Shown here piece after piece: positions 4,389-18,648 of a stretch of DNA of 64,000 nt. The notes under the pieces are model-generated. The model saw only the letters and a program-made list of their open reading frames with translations, made no database searches and was not told the DNA's origin. The position numbers were made by a program, and so were the translations under genes. Every line of letters starts with the position of its first letter. Within the stretch, counting starts at the first letter, position 1. This DNA is from Lysobacterales bacterium (lineage in GTDB: Bacteria > Pseudomonadota > Gammaproteobacteria > Nevskiales > Salinisphaeraceae): contig PBAO01000015.1 in assembly GCA_002715985.1 (NCBI GenBank), positions 50,519 to 114,518 of the forward strand, in the 5' to 3' direction.

Positions 4389-5039
4389 ATGAACAAAGAC
4401 AAACGCACGGCGATCTTCGAACGGCTCAAATCGGCCAACCCGGCGCCCCGGACCGAACTGGAATACAGCTCGAATTTCGAGCTGCTGATCGCCGTGATTC
4501 TCTCGGCCCAGGCCACGGATGTCGGTGTGAACAAGGCCACGCGCCGGCTTTATCCCGTGGCCAACACCCCGCAGGCGATCTGGGATCTGGGCGAGGCCGG
4601 GCTGATCGAGTACATCAAGACCATCGGCCTGTATCGATCCAAGGCCGCCAACGTGATCAAGACCTGTCGGGCACTGCTTGATGATCATGACGGCGTCGTG
4701 CCGGCCACGCGCGCCGAACTGGTCGCTCTGCCCGGCGTGGGCCGCAAGACCGCCAATGTGGTGCTCAATACCGCGTTCGGCCAACCCGCCATGGCCGTGG
4801 ACACGCATATCTTTCGTGTGTCCAATCGTACCGGCATCGCCACCGGCAAGACGGTGCGAGCCGTCGAGGACCGACTGATGCGTCTGGTGCCAAAGCCTTA
4901 TCTGCAGGATGCGCATCACTGGCTGATTCTGCACGGACGCTATACCTGTCGCGCCCGATCACCGGCCTGTAGCGCGTGCGTGATCCTCGATCTATGTGAA
5001 TATCGGCACAAGAATCTGCCCACGAACAACACGCCATGA
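4389..5039 (+). CDS. nth: Endonuclease III
   Basis: LIAVILSAQATDVGVNKATRRLY, LPGVGRKTANVVLNTAFG (HhH), VDTHIFRVSNR and C-terminal 4Fe-4S cysteines CRARSPACSACVILDLC. Confidence 0.97.
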   Translation: MNKDKRTAIFERLKSANPAPRTELEYSSNFELLIAVILSAQATDVGVNKATRRLYPVANTPQAIWDLGEAGLIEYIKTIGLYRSKAANVIKTCRALLDDHDGVVPATRAELVALPGVGRKTANVVLNTAFGQPAMAVDTHIFRVSNRTGIATGKTVRAVEDRLMRLVPKPYLQDAHHWLILHGRYTCRARSPACSACVILDLCEYRHKNLPTNNTP

Positions 5040-5698
5040 CCCACACCCAGGCCGCTGCCTTTGCCCATCGCCAGACGCCGCGTATCTTCTGTATCGGGCG
5101 TAATTACGCCAAGCATATCGCCGAGTTGAACAGCACCCTGCCGGGGGCTGAATGCGTCATCTTCATGAAGCCGCTCGCCAGCCTGGTCGCGCCCGACGAT
5201 GCGCTGATGCTGCCCCTGGAGCGCGGCGAGATCCATCACGAGGCCGAGCTTGTCATCGAGATCGGCCGGGGCGGACACGAGATCCCGAGCGATTCGGCAC
5301 GCGACCATATTGCAGCCCTCGGGCTGGGCCTGGATCTGACGGCCCGCGATGTCCAAACCGAGCTCAAGTCCTCCGGCGAGCCCTGGGAGCGCGCCAAGGC
5401 CTTCGAGCAGAGCGCACCGCTGGGTCCGATGACGCCGTTGACCGAAGATATCGATCTGGCCGACCTGCACTTCGAGTTGACCATCGACGGCCAGACCCGA
5501 CAGGTCGGACATACCGCGAACATGATGGTCGGCATCACCCGCCTGGTGGCTGTCGTCAGCCAAACCTGGACGCTGCGCCCCGGCGATCTGATCTTCACCG
5601 GCACACCCGAAGGCGTCGGCCCGGTCGTGCCGGGACAGCGTCTGTGCCTGTCGGGCCCGCAATTCCAGCCCGCGACCTGGACGATCGGCACCTCCTGA
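5036..5698 (+). CDS. Fumarylacetoacetate hydrolase family protein
   Basis: IFCIGRNYAKHIAELN, FMKPLASL, HHEAELVIEIG, GDLIFTGTPEGVGPV motifs; ATGA overlap with nth. Confidence 0.92.
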   Translation: MTHTQAAAFAHRQTPRIFCIGRNYAKHIAELNSTLPGAECVIFMKPLASLVAPDDALMLPLERGEIHHEAELVIEIGRGGHEIPSDSARDHIAALGLGLDLTARDVQTELKSSGEPWERAKAFEQSAPLGPMTPLTEDIDLADLHFELTIDGQTRQVGHTANMMVGITRLVAVVSQTWTLRPGDLIFTGTPEGVGPVVPGQRLCLSGPQFQPATWTIGTS

Positions 5699-12843: not shown

Positions 12844-13653
12844 ATGTCCGCGACCCAATCCTCGTTTTCCAGTGACCGTCCGTTGCTCGGGCGGGCCCGC
12901 CTGATCCTCAAGGGCATCCACTTTGCCGGCGTGCTGTTGCTCGGCGTGGTGCTGTTGCCCAGCGTTGCGCTGCTGGGGCGCCACGCCAAGCATCTGATCA
13001 ACTGGTGGCTGGGTCGCATGCTGGCCGCACTCGCGGTCGATGTCGAACTCGATGGCCAGGCGCCGGCCGCGCCCATGCTGGTGGTTGCCAACCACTGCTC
13101 GTGGCTGGATATCCTGGTGCTGGGCTGGGCGTTCAACACCGCGTTCGTTTCCAAGGCCGAGGTCGGCAAATGGCCGATCGTGGGTTCGTTTGCACGCGCC
13201 GGTGGCACATTGTTCCTCTCGCGCGGGGCCGGCAAGACCGGCGAGACCAGCGCGCGGATTCGCGAGGTACTGGATAACGGGCGCTCGGTGTTGTTCTTTC
13301 CCGAAGGCACGACCACTTGCGATCCCAGTCCGCAGCGTTTTCATGCCCGTCTATTTGCGGCCGCGATCGACGGTGGCTATTCGGTTCTGCCCGTGGGGCT
13401 TCGCTACTGCGACGACACCACCCCGCCCGGCATGCACCACGCGCTGGCGCCCTGGGTGAACGAGGCGCCGCTGGGCCCGCATTTCAAGGATCTGTTTCGG
13501 CTGCGGGGCATCACCGCCCAGCTGCGCATCTGCGCGCCCATCAATCCGCGCGGCTATGATCGACGCAGCCTGGCCGAAGCGGCGCGCACGGCCGTGGCGC
13601 ATCGCCAGGCCGTGGCCACCGCCAAGGAATTGCGCAGCGACTCACTCAGTTAG
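12844..13653 (+). CDS. plsC: 1-acyl-sn-glycerol-3-phosphate acyltransferase family protein
   Basis: VVANHCSWLDILVLG (NHxxxxD motif), VLFFPEGTTTCDPSPQRFH. Confidence 0.88.
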   Translation: MSATQSSFSSDRPLLGRARLILKGIHFAGVLLLGVVLLPSVALLGRHAKHLINWWLGRMLAALAVDVELDGQAPAAPMLVVANHCSWLDILVLGWAFNTAFVSKAEVGKWPIVGSFARAGGTLFLSRGAGKTGETSARIREVLDNGRSVLFFPEGTTTCDPSPQRFHARLFAAAIDGGYSVLPVGLRYCDDTTPPGMHHALAPWVNEAPLGPHFKDLFRLRGITAQLRICAPINPRGYDRRSLAEAARTAVAHRQAVATAKELRSDSLS

Positions 13654-14611
13654 CCTCGTCGCGCGCAGGCGGTGCGATATGGCCATCGCCCGGCAGGCCA
13701 CGTAGCGCGTAATAATCGGCGTTGTCGGTGCCGTCGTAGCGCCGCTCGTTGATGAATCGCTGAATCACCGCGGCGCATTCATTGGCACGCAGCAACAGGA
13801 ACAGGTGCCCGCCACCGCGCACGATATGAACGTGCGATTTGGGGATCAGCCAGTACAACAGACGGCTCTGATACAGCGGAGCGATCGGGTCATCGTCGCC
13901 AGCCATGACCAGCGTGGGACACATCAGATTGTGTAGCCGATGGATCGTCATCCAGCCCACACGCGCCACCAGCTGATTGATATAGCCATGCAGCTCTGGC
14001 GCGGCCAGATGCTCGCGCGCGGTCGCTGTCTCGACCGGCGTCTGTTGTACCAGGCCGCTATAAAACCCGGACATGCCGTCCGGGGTGGCCTCGTCGGCAT
14101 GGAAACGCCGTATCGCCCTGAAGCGTCGCAGGCTGTTGGTATTCAGCGCGTTGATGCCCACGCCAACGGTACCCGCTGCCAGCACCAGGCGATTGACCGG
14201 ATGGCTGTCATCCAGGGCAAACGACTGGGCCAGTGCGGCGCCCCACCCCAGGCCGACAACGTTGACAGCGCTGTCATACCCCAAGCGCGCCAGAAATGTC
14301 TTTAGAAGCCGGGCATGCCAGCCCATGCCGCGCGGTATCCGTCGCGCGGGCGAGGCCCCCGAGCCCGGCATTTCGGGGATGATGACCTCGATATCATCCA
14401 GGGCATCGACCAGCGGCAACAGCATATCCAGGTGCGTCCCCACGGTGCCGAGCAGTACCATCGGCCGCCCGGCCCCGCGACGCACGCCATAGCGCAGCCG
14501 GACGCCGTCGACATCCAGCCAGTCGATCTGCATGCGGGTACGCCGACGCAGCGCGCTCTGTGCCGGGGGCAGTGCGCGGCGAGCGCCGCGTGCGGAGGCT
14601 TGTGCCATCAT
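13646..14611 (-). CDS. Alpha/beta hydrolase related to mcl-PHA depolymerase (PhaZ-like), nucleophile Ser replaced by Gly
   Basis: NVVGLGWGAALAQSFA at the lipase-box position, GWMTIHRLHNLMCPTLVMAGDDDPIAPLYQSRLLYWLIPKSHVHIVRGGGHLFLL resembles PhaZ C-terminus; 4-nt overlap with the upstream gene. Possible internal start MQIDWLD. Confidence 0.8.
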   Translation of the reverse strand: MMAQASARGARRALPPAQSALRRRTRMQIDWLDVDGVRLRYGVRRGAGRPMVLLGTVGTHLDMLLPLVDALDDIEVIIPEMPGSGASPARRIPRGMGWHARLLKTFLARLGYDSAVNVVGLGWGAALAQSFALDDSHPVNRLVLAAGTVGVGINALNTNSLRRFRAIRRFHADEATPDGMSGFYSGLVQQTPVETATAREHLAAPELHGYINQLVARVGWMTIHRLHNLMCPTLVMAGDDDPIAPLYQSRLLYWLIPKSHVHIVRGGGHLFLLLRANECAAVIQRFINERRYDGTDNADYYALRGLPGDGHIAPPARDEAN

Positions 14612-15459
14612 CGTTCCTCGAAAAGCGCCAGGAATGCCTCGATTCGTCGCAGCGATTCGCTGCGACGCTCGATCAGCAGCCAGTGCCCGGCCCCGTGCAG
14701 CACGGACAGCTCGGCGCGCGGCATGAGCAGTTGTAGCAGCCGCGCGTTGGCCAACGGCACGATTCGATCATCGTCGCCGGCCAGTATCAGCGTCGGCATG
14801 CTGATGCGGTGAGCAAACATCAGACTGGAAAAACCGACCACGGCATAGAGCTGACCGGCCAGCGCGGCCGCGCTCGGCGTGCGGGCCCCCGCCAGGGCAA
14901 GCGCCACGTCGCGACAATCGCGTTCGCAGCGCCCGCCGAAGATCTCGCGCGCTTGGCGGGCATCCACGTTCAGACCGGCCCGCCCGGCGATACCGGCCAG
15001 GCCCTTCAGAGCTCGCCAGCGCCCGGGCAGCATCGTCTGGCCACAGGACGTGGCCACCAGTACGAGCGCGTTCACGCGTGCTGCCTCACGATAGGCCAGC
15101 TGCTGGGCCAGCAGGCCGCCCCAGCCCATGCCGAGGACGTTGACCCGGGCCAGTCCCAGCTCATCAAGCAACCTGGCGATCTGATCCGCGCGCGCAGGCA
15201 TGCGCTGACGTGCCGCGGCGAACGAGACGCTCTGCGTGCCGTGCATGCCCGGCCAGTCGAATATCACCGTGGGACAGGACAAGGCCCGGCAGAAGGAAGC
15301 CAGAAGCGCGCGATCCGCGCCGTAGTCGCTGCATAGAAGCAGCGTGGTGCCCTGGCCGGCGGTGCGGGTCACACCCAGCCGCTGACCGGCCAGATCGATC
15401 TCGAGGTCGACCTCGAGATCGCCGGCCGTCGCGCGGCTCGATTCAGCGTTGTCGGACAT
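14608..15459 (-). CDS. Alpha/beta hydrolase, PhaZ-like paralog, nucleophile Ser replaced by Gly
   Basis: NVLGMGWGGLLAQQLA at the lipase-box position; PTLILAGDDDRIVPLANARLLQLLMPRAELSVLHGAGHWLLI. Start MSDNAESS chosen by short overlap with the phaC-like gene; the listed ORF extends further upstream. Confidence 0.78.
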   Translation of the reverse strand: MSDNAESSRATAGDLEVDLEIDLAGQRLGVTRTAGQGTTLLLCSDYGADRALLASFCRALSCPTVIFDWPGMHGTQSVSFAAARQRMPARADQIARLLDELGLARVNVLGMGWGGLLAQQLAYREAARVNALVLVATSCGQTMLPGRWRALKGLAGIAGRAGLNVDARQAREIFGGRCERDCRDVALALAGARTPSAAALAGQLYAVVGFSSLMFAHRISMPTLILAGDDDRIVPLANARLLQLLMPRAELSVLHGAGHWLLIERRSESLRRIEAFLALFEER

Positions 15460-17161
15460 AACGCCCCGGTGCGATATCGATCGGGGCAAGGCCCGTGGCC
15501 GTATCGCCGTAGTGAACGGGGGCGGGGCGCGCGGCTGCACCGTGCGCCTGGCACCAGGCCAGCCATTCGTGCCACCAGGACTCATGATAGCCCGGCGCCC
15601 CGGCCCGCCAATCAGCGGCCGTCTCCCCCTGACCACAGACATCACTGGCATACATCGTGCCCTCGCCCGGTGGACAGACCAATGACTGCACGTGCCCGGC
15701 CCCAACCAGCACGAAACGAGAGGGCGCACTCAGACGTGCGGCGCTTTCGTGACAGGCGCGCCACGGGGTGATGTGGTCTTTTTCCCCGGCCATGACGAAC
15801 ACATCGCAGTCGATCGCCGACAGGTCGATCGCGATATCGTCGATCATGATCCCGCCGGGGCGCGCCAGCGCGTCGTCGCCATAGATGCGCAGCAGATCGG
15901 CGTGCAGTCGCGCCGGCAGCCGGGTGGTATCGGCGTTCCAATACAGGATATCGCTGGCCGGCGGGCGCTGGCCGAGCACGTAGTTATTGGTCACGAACCG
16001 CCAGATCATGTCCTCGGGGCGCAGCCAGGCAAAAGCCCGTGCCATGTCGGCCCCATCGAGTACGCCCGTCGTCGAGGATCGCGCCAGGGCGTGTCGCACG
16101 GCGCGTTCGTCATGGGCCCGGCCGGCGTCGTCGGTTGCCAGACTCTTGCCCAGCAGCGTGACGAACAACGACAGACAGGCCACATCGGCCGATGCGGCCC
16201 CGGGCGCGACGTCGCGGGCGCGACGATAGGCCAGCGCCACGGCCGCGGTGAGCCCGCCGGCACAGGCGCCCACGAGCTTGACCGCGGCGCCGTCATTGAG
16301 GGTGGCCACACGCTCGATCGCTTGATCCACGGCCTTGACGTAATCCGCCAGCCCCCAGTGCTTCTGGGCAGCCGTGGGGTTGCGCCAGGACAGCATGAAA
16401 ACCGGCTGACCGGCGGCCAGCGCATAGCGCACAAAGCTGTTCTCGCCCGATAGATCGAAGACATAGAACTTGTTGATCTGAGGCGGCACGATGAGGATGG
16501 GCGATGCATCCTGCTCGGGCGTGGCCGGGGCGTACTGGATCAGCTCGACCAGTGCATCACGATAGATGACCGCCCCCGGCGTGGCCGCGATGTTCTTGCC
16601 GATCGTGAATGCGGACGTGTCGACCTGGCGCGGCAGCCCGTGGTGACGCGTCATGTCATCGACGAACTGCACCAGCCCGGTGAGCATCGATGCGCCCTTC
16701 GTGGCCCGGGCGCGCGCATAGAAACCGGGATGCAGGAAGAAAAGATTGCTCGGCGCCCCGGCTGCCATGGCATGACGCACGACAAAGCGCAGGCGATCGC
16801 GCGTGGTGTCGTCGACCGTGAGTGCGTCGACCAGATCGGTCAGCGCCTGTGACCAGGCCAGATAGATCTGCAGGGTGCGCCGGAACACCGGATGCGCCTG
16901 CCAGGAGTGATCGGTGAAACGTCGGTCGCCGGCGTGCGGGGCGAGCGGCGCACGCCCCAAGGCGATGAGCGCCAGACGGGCAACCAGGGCCATCTCGATG
17001 CGTGCCACGGTCAAGGGCTGGCGCGCACTGGCCGCCACGAGTTCGGACATCGAGCGCGACAACGAGGGCCACTCCGCTCGACGGCTGGGATCCATGACCT
17101 CGGGCTCGGCCGAGGGCAGTTCGGGGGAGCTAGCAGCTGAGCGGGGCCTGGCAATCGGCAT
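15443..17161 (-). CDS. phaC: Polyhydroxyalkanoate synthase (PhaC-like)
   Basis: PILIVPPQINKFYVFDLSGENSFVRYALAAGQPVFMLSWRNP, LVGACAGGLTAAVALAY (GxCxG with catalytic Cys), MAGEKDHITPW, VGAGHVQSLVCPPG. Start MPIARPR proposed. Confidence 0.9.
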   Translation of the reverse strand: MPIARPRSAASSPELPSAEPEVMDPSRRAEWPSLSRSMSELVAASARQPLTVARIEMALVARLALIALGRAPLAPHAGDRRFTDHSWQAHPVFRRTLQIYLAWSQALTDLVDALTVDDTTRDRLRFVVRHAMAAGAPSNLFFLHPGFYARARATKGASMLTGLVQFVDDMTRHHGLPRQVDTSAFTIGKNIAATPGAVIYRDALVELIQYAPATPEQDASPILIVPPQINKFYVFDLSGENSFVRYALAAGQPVFMLSWRNPTAAQKHWGLADYVKAVDQAIERVATLNDGAAVKLVGACAGGLTAAVALAYRRARDVAPGAASADVACLSLFVTLLGKSLATDDAGRAHDERAVRHALARSSTTGVLDGADMARAFAWLRPEDMIWRFVTNNYVLGQRPPASDILYWNADTTRLPARLHADLLRIYGDDALARPGGIMIDDIAIDLSAIDCDVFVMAGEKDHITPWRACHESAARLSAPSRFVLVGAGHVQSLVCPPGEGTMYASDVCGQGETAADWRAGAPGYHESWWHEWLAWCQAHGAAARPAPVHYGDTATGLAPIDIAPGRYVRQR

Positions 17162-17229: not shown

Positions 17230-18648
17230 ATGCGCCGAGCATCAATTCAAGCGAAACCGGTCATGGCATCTTTCGGCGCGATCAAACAAGGCTACGAACG
17301 CATCGTTTGGGCGCGCGACCCCGAGGATCTGGCGCTCTACAAGCGCGTGCCCCTGCGTGCTGCGCGTATCATCATCGCGCTCATCGGCGATTTTCGTGAC
17401 GGCGATATCACGCTGCGCGCCATGAGCCTGGTCTATACCACGCTCGTCTCGCTGGTTCCGCTTCTGGCACTGGCGTTCTCGTTGCTCAAGGCCTTTGGCG
17501 CGGACAATGCCCTGCGGCCGACGCTGGCCCGTTTTCTGGCGCCGTTGGGCAGTGGCAGCACGGCCATCGTCGACAAGATCGTGGATTTCGTCTCCAACGT
17601 GCAGGTCGGCGTTCTCGGGGCGATCGGCGTGGTGGCCCTGATCTATTCCGTGCTGTCGCTGATACAGAAAGTCGAGGCCGGCTGCAATTTCATCTGGCGG
17701 GTGCGCCAGCCCCGCCCGCTGGGCCGACGTGTCACCGAATACATCAGCGTGCTGGTCGTCGGGCCTCTGGTCATCCTGGCGGCAGCGAGTCTCACGGCCA
17801 GTGTGTCGAAGAATTCGACCGTGGTGTATCTGTCGCAGTACCAGGGCTTTGGCATGGCGCTGTATGCAGCCGGCCACGTCCTGCCCTATGTGCTCTACAG
17901 CATCGCCTTCACGGCACTGTTCAAGTTCATTCCCAACACGCGCGTCAAGCTTGTACCCGCAATCGGCGGCGGCATTTTCGCCGGCGTGCTGTGGCAGACC
18001 GCCAGTATCGGGTTTTCCGTGTTCGCCAGCAACGCCGGTAACGTCAACGCGATCTACTCGAGTTTCGCGATTCTCATCCTTCTGCTGATCTGGCTGTATG
18101 TGTCGTGGATGATCGTGTTGCTGGGGTGCCGGGTCGCGTTCTGGATTCAGCACCCCGAGCGTTTGATGCCCGGCGACTACCCGCCACGGCTGGGCAGCCG
18201 CGAAGCCGAGCGTCTGGTGCTTCGTATCGCGACCGAGATCGCGCGTCGCTTTTCGCTCGGCGAGCCCGCCACCGATGTAGCGCATCTGTCACAACAGCTG
18301 CATGCCGCCCCCGATCATGTCCATCGCGCGGTCGAGCGTCTGGTCGTCGCGGATGTCCTCATCGAAACCGAACAGGGCTCTGCCACCCAGGCCCTGGTCC
18401 CCAAACGCGATATCCGGCGCATCCGCGTGGCCGATATCGTCGCCGTGGTGGCCAACGGCGATGCCACCGCCCGAATCGCCCTGCCTGTACATGCGCCCGG
18501 CGCGGCAGTCGACGAATTACTGATACGCGCCGAGTCGGCACGCCAGCATGTCATTGCTGACACCACGCTGCGCGATCTCGTTGAATCAACGGGACAATTC
18601 GAAGAAAAAGCCTTCGACACGGGCCAGTCCACGGCACTAAAGACGTAG
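17230..18648 (+). CDS. yihY: YihY/BrkB family inner-membrane protein with C-terminal extension
   Basis: GDITLRAMSLVYTTLVSLVPLLALAFSLLKAFG, PNTRVKLVPAIGGGIFAGVLW, FAILILLLIWLYVSWMIVLLG. Start may be MASFGAIKQ (17263). Confidence 0.9.
   Translation: MRRASIQAKPVMASFGAIKQGYERIVWARDPEDLALYKRVPLRAARIIIALIGDFRDGDITLRAMSLVYTTLVSLVPLLALAFSLLKAFGADNALRPTLARFLAPLGSGSTAIVDKIVDFVSNVQVGVLGAIGVVALIYSVLSLIQKVEAGCNFIWRVRQPRPLGRRVTEYISVLVVGPLVILAAASLTASVSKNSTVVYLSQYQGFGMALYAAGHVLPYVLYSIAFTALFKFIPNTRVKLVPAIGGGIFAGVLWQTASIGFSVFASNAGNVNAIYSSFAILILLLIWLYVSWMIVLLGCRVAFWIQHPERLMPGDYPPRLGSREAERLVLRIATEIARRFSLGEPATDVAHLSQQLHAAPDHVHRAVERLVVADVLIETEQGSATQALVPKRDIRRIRVADIVAVVANGDATARIALPVHAPGAAVDELLIRAESARQHVIADTTLRDLVESTGQFEEKAFDTGQSTALKT

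Follow-up and report, generated by a model that had tools for sequence, protein, structure and literature searches.

Two PhaZ-like proteins encoded beside a PHA synthase gene in a Salinisphaera genome lack the catalytic serine and are probably maintained pseudoenzymes

Two tandem genes of the mcl-PHA depolymerase (PhaZ) family, ORF1 and ORF2, lie beside a PHA synthase gene (phaC) in a 64,000-nucleotide stretch of Salinisphaera DNA (the window, meaning the whole stretch that was analysed), and both encode Gly in place of the catalytic Ser. The two proteins are probably maintained pseudoenzymes of this family, with a binding or steering role at the PHA granule or at PhaC. Judging from their sequences, neither ORF in the clade of the window genome is expected to hydrolyse PHA through the classical triad, and the retained function would be binding of the polymer, the granule, PhaC, or each other.

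The gene order on the minus strand is phaC, ORF2, and ORF1 (Table 1). The overlap is 17 bp between phaC and ORF2 and 4 bp between ORF2 and ORF1 (ATGA, 14608-14611). The ATG at 17161 was used as the start of phaC, the open frame of which opens at TTG 17221, and the catalytic Cys, Asp, and His of PhaC are intact. A gene for an acyltransferase resembling lyso-ornithine lipid acyltransferase OlsA (12844-13653, plus strand) is convergent with ORF1 and overlaps its end by 8 bp. The gene at 17230-18648 (plus strand) encodes a membrane protein of the YihY/BrkB family, the C-terminal part of which weakly matches Rrf2. The closest named relative of the window genome is S. japonica YTM-1 (Salinisphaera), with 93% identity for ORF1.

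Table 1. Features of the phaC-ORF2-ORF1 locus (window positions).
Feature	Position	Strand	Remarks
ORF1, PhaZ-like paralogue 1	13646..14611	-	321 aa; Gly at nucleophile position
ORF1 conserved 16-residue C-terminal tail, residues 286-301	13709..13756	-	FINERRYDGTDNADYY; part predicted at low confidence
ORF1 His269, kept	13805..13807	-	alignment
ORF1 Asp241 (GxxD acid), kept	13889..13891	-	alignment
ORF1 Gly122 codon in place of catalytic Ser	14246..14248	-	sequence, alignment
ORF1 loop matching KT2440 FNGIG (34-38), now L-G-T-V-G-T-H	14432..14455	-	alignment
ORF2, PhaZ-like paralogue 2	14608..15459	-	283 aa; nucleophile Gly common to all Salinisphaeraceae loci found
ORF2 His259, kept	14683..14685	-	alignment
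ORF2 Asp231 (GxxD acid), kept	14767..14769	-	alignment
ORF2 Gly112 codon in place of catalytic Ser	15124..15126	-	sequence, alignment
ORF2 loop matching KT2440 FNGIG (34-38), now C-S-D-Y-G-A-D	15313..15333	-	alignment
phaC, PHA synthase	15443..17161	-	best match TIGR01839 (class II), under cut-off; Cys-Asp-His present

The best family for both proteins is TIGR02240 (PHA_depoly_arom, poly(3-hydroxyalkanoate) depolymerase; E-values of 4e-46 for ORF1 and 7e-41 for ORF2), with scores of 158 and 141 bits, respectively, under the curated cut-off of 250.6 bits. Seven Ser-bearing ORF1 orthologues reach this cut-off, and the highest Ser-bearing score is 279 bits. Both proteins are members of the alpha/beta-hydrolases (PF00561) by family score and by fold. 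The catalytic Ser motif G-x-S-W-G is replaced by GLGWG in ORF1 (elbow V-V-G-L-G-W-G-A) and by GMGWG in ORF2 (V-L-G-M-G-W-G-G), and Gly falls exactly on the nucleophile position when the proteins are aligned to PhaZ relatives or to Est1, an esterase of solved structure that reads GVSMGG. The predicted structures are canonical alpha/beta-hydrolases (mean pLDDT of 73 for ORF1 and 86 for ORF2), and their nearest matches among solved structures are esterases and further hydrolases sharing this fold. In the models, Gly occupies the elbow turn between strand and helix (strand 116-121 and helix 123-133 in ORF1; strand 106-111 and helix 113-124 in ORF2). A shifted nucleophile was ruled out by the models and the alignment, in which neither the elbow nor the positions next to it contain Ser, Cys, or Asp, and the changes specific to the Gly clade of ORF1 offered no convincing candidate for a new nucleophile. 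Sequencing error or strain mutation was also ruled out because identical residues are present in independent genomes. The Asp of the GxxD motif and the His of the GH motif are invariant in the 28 aligned ORF1 and ORF2 proteins. The initial annotation had reported Gly at both elbows together with retention of the Asp and His motifs, and had named a usable Ser, Cys, or Asp at the elbow as the finding that would overturn this; the sequence, the alignments, and the models agree with it on each point. Its assertion that Ser was the only residue replaced has to be abandoned since the N-G-I-G loop (residues 34-38 of the KT2440 enzyme) is altered as well.

Deletion of the FNGIG loop (residues 34-38) from KT2440 PhaZ abolished activity (PMC12504323). 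The equivalent residues are LGTVG in ORF1 and CSDYG in ORF2. The N-G-I-G loop is present in nearly all Ser-bearing homologues outside Salinisphaeraceae; within the family, NTIG or NAMG is found in some ORF1 proteins, LGTxG in the Gly-bearing ORF1 proteins, and CNDFx or CSDYG, for example, in ORF2. The Gly clade of ORF1 additionally displays the pocket changes N55G, A59T, N60H, and G125A. The C-terminal tail of ORF1 (consensus FxNERRYDGTDxxDY) shows 89% identity among 13 Salinisphaera, equal to the conservation of the His motif, versus 48% for the lid, and it is retained in Ser-less copies too.

The order phaC-ORF2-ORF1 was found in the window and at 13 other Salinisphaeraceae loci, which together represent two genera. 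The ORF2 elbow contains Gly at all 14 loci, including that of the other genus (G015). The ORF1 elbow contains Ser at nine loci, Ala at two (Q1T1-3 and GH4), and Gly at three (the window genome, S. japonica, and UBA1666). Homologues with an elbow Gly beside phaC, of the kind that the initial annotation had proposed to seek in related genomes, are general for ORF2 and restricted to 3/14 loci for ORF1. Ser is present in all readable elbows (about 40) of PhaZ-type relatives outside Salinisphaeraceae, drawn from the same order, other classes, and plasmids, and the rest of the order harbors a single phaC-phaZ pair with Ser. A class-wide scan of 369 genomes, a sample with few PhaZ genes, for a narrow DNA pattern of the GxGWG elbow retrieved true relatives only in Salinisphaera. 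ORF1 and ORF2 form separate clades in the tree, with the G015 sequence basal in each, although the long branches make the date of the duplication less certain. For ORF1, parsimony gives two Ser losses and three residue changes overall on the premise that Ser was never regained. The AU test against a single clade of Ser-less ORF1 gave p=0.0002 for phaC, ORF2, and ORF1 combined and p=0.028 for ORF1, the latter value being only moderate evidence because the tested group was defined by the trait. Assuming no regain, these data indicate that the ORF1 Ser was lost independently at least twice. Joint loss of Ser from both copies was ruled out by the relatives in which a Gly-bearing ORF2 stands beside a Ser-bearing ORF1. 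By sequence comparison, ORF2 is an ancient, family-wide Ser-less paralogue and the loss in ORF1 is later, clade-specific, and recurrent. The pair did not lose Ser in one step, and most relatives have kept Ser in ORF1.

Across the window and loci L086-L098, the ATGA overlap couples ORF2 to ORF1 in the Gly clade and in Q1T1-3, and in Ser-bearing species the two genes lie from tens of bp to about 250 bp apart. The shift to coupled ORF2-ORF1 translation accompanies the loss of Ser in one clade. G015 harbors a further PhaZ-like gene (C17, L188, approximately 4546-5253) with an intact Ser (GHSWGG) and the acid motif GERD, and a phasin gene is present in the same stretch.

Between the window genome and S. 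japonica, dN/dS (Nei-Gojobori) was 0.085 for ORF1, 0.26 for ORF2, and 0.15 for phaC, for a dS of about 0.4. The ratio of ORF1 to phaC dN/dS ranged over 0.57-0.65 for pairs within the Gly clade, compared with 0.60-0.89 for Ser-bearing pairs at a useful distance, estimates from more distant pairs being rougher with a dS near or above 1. These ratios are alike, indicating that loss of Ser did not relax the constraint on ORF1. Pairwise dN/dS thus shows that the Gly-bearing ORF1 is not decaying and is under purifying selection in this lineage. ORF2 evolved somewhat faster than phaC, with 21% of its columns invariant. Both genes combine the lost catalytic residue with the purifying selection expected of a pseudoenzyme, and cross-species conservation and low dN/dS lend good support to the original proposal that the pair is maintained as such. 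The overlap of both frames with phaC, invoked at that stage against decay, exists for ORF2, ORF1 overlapping ORF2 instead, and is weak evidence in comparison with dN/dS. Homologues with an intact Ser, which were to have exposed the Gly codons as errors or strain-specific mutations, do exist for ORF1 (9/14), but Gly is a fixed change of the lineage under selection.

The pair was detected in all 14 Salinisphaeraceae genomes with a full-length PhaC_N match; the other three (G007, which is incomplete, G014, where one contig contains a PhaC fragment, and G016) have neither the pair nor such a match. The window genome also encodes a Phasin_2 protein at another site. Searches of the window genome (82% complete) and of S. 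japonica (99% complete) for the depolymerase families TIGR01849, PF10503, and NF050089 gave nothing above cut-off, and TIGR01849 was found in G015. Another depolymerase may exist since these genomes encode many alpha/beta-hydrolases without family assignment. In P. putida, loss of phaZ resulted in a shorter polymer, and the authors did not rule out that PhaZ acts in synthesis or in setting chain length (PMC3918157).

The tree and the gene order suggest that an ancestral phaC-phaZ pair gave rise to the locus by duplication of phaZ early in Salinisphaeraceae. The copy adjacent to phaC, ORF2, exchanged Ser for Gly and was retained without Ser in all species that have a full phaC. In most species, ORF2 is probably a binding or regulatory partner of the Ser-bearing ORF1 beside it. 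In at least two lineages, including that of the window genome, ORF1 also lost Ser, and pairwise dN/dS shows that selection was not relaxed in the window lineage. The fold, lid, and pocket may have been kept in both proteins to bind PHA chains, the granule, or PhaC, and the two proteins would steer synthesis, granule structure, or polymer protection instead of hydrolysis. The conserved C-terminal tail of ORF1 is a likely docking segment. Invariance of Asp and His in 28 proteins exceeds the needs of a pure scaffold and counts against it, though 21% of the ORF2 columns are invariant anyway. The somewhat faster evolution of ORF2 relative to phaC also speaks against the pseudoenzyme reading.

The Ser-less proteins might still be enzymes in which the Asp-His dyad activates water or the substrate and Gly provides room, catalyzing hydrolysis without an acyl-enzyme or a lyase- or oxygenase-like reaction. 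Cofactor-free dioxygenases of the alpha/beta-hydrolase fold depend on a His-Asp dyad, and such chemistry would fit the invariant Asp and His, the constant Gly of ORF2, and the way in which pocket residues changed together in Gly-bearing ORF1. We regard this as unlikely: the conserved N-G-I-G loop is gone, the elbow has no new Ser or Cys beside it, and the occurrence of Ala as well as Gly in ORF1 argues that no single new geometry was selected. A heteromeric depolymerase comprising Ser-bearing ORF1 and ORF2 as its obligate subunit, converted to a purely PHA-binding (phasin-like) complex in the Ser-less clade, is also improbable. Adjacency of ORF2 and ORF1 in 14/14 genomes and their coupling in the Gly clade and Q1T1-3, with the ORFs apart in Ser-bearing species, speak for it; this coupling amounts to one event because it arose in one clade only, and the heteromer would be a special case of the pseudoenzyme reading.

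The lost Ser could finally mean that ORF1 in the clade of the window genome is on its way to decay, its role as a depolymerase having become dispensable once the lifestyle changed, with ORF2 as an unimportant remnant, as might be expected from the repeated loss of Ser in ORF1, the lowered TIGR02240 score (158 bits versus up to 279 bits with Ser), and the lack in S. japonica of another known-type PHA depolymerase above cut-off. This is very unlikely as it is strongly opposed by a dN/dS of ORF1 below that of phaC, and also by frames intact in three species and by family-wide retention of Gly and of an open frame in ORF2. Beyond the maintained pseudoenzymes that we favor, a more specific proposal is at present tentative and somewhat doubtful, namely that a former PHA depolymerase pair is now a dedicated non-hydrolytic PhaC/granule complex or that the Asp-His dyad runs a new Ser-independent reaction on PHA. 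If true, the dedicated complex would show that hydrolases of a storage polymer can turn, repeatedly, into regulators that bind it.

PHA turnover is taken to depend on hydrolysis by PhaZ. With the known-type families searched not above cut-off in S. japonica, mobilisation must go another way or not happen if these bacteria make PHA. The natural Ser/Ala/Gly series in this gene family is suited to testing a non-catalytic role of PhaZ in PHA synthesis or granules, a question raised by the P. putida phaZ mutants with shorter polymer. These findings also speak against annotating genes such as ORF1 and ORF2 as PHA depolymerases.

No report of a PhaZ-family pseudoenzyme was found in the open-access literature searched, and the titles and abstracts retrieved for Salinisphaera and polyhydroxyalkanoate contained nothing relevant. 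ORF1 and ORF2 resemble PhaZ (TIGR02240; P. putida KT2440, Ser102/Asp221/His248) in their best family, phaC neighbor, lidded alpha/beta-hydrolase fold, and Asp and His motifs, and differ from it by the replacement of Ser by Gly in both proteins, the altered FNGIG loop, a score under cut-off, and the C-terminal tail specific to ORF1. The esterase Est1 (PDB 6eb3, 8v16), which ranks first or close to first among solved structures for each ORF by sequence and fold, has the Ser that they lack. Phasins and the synthase subunits PhaE and PhaR are granule or PhaC partners encoded with phaC and have no fold relation to ORF1 and ORF2, the likeness being only in the proposed role. Animal neuroligins and NDRG proteins are Ser-less members of the alpha/beta-hydrolase fold that kept the fold, lost the nucleophile, and have a binding role; in contrast, ORF1 and ORF2 belong to an unrelated subfamily, are bacterial, are encoded beside a PHA synthase, and have kept Asp and His.
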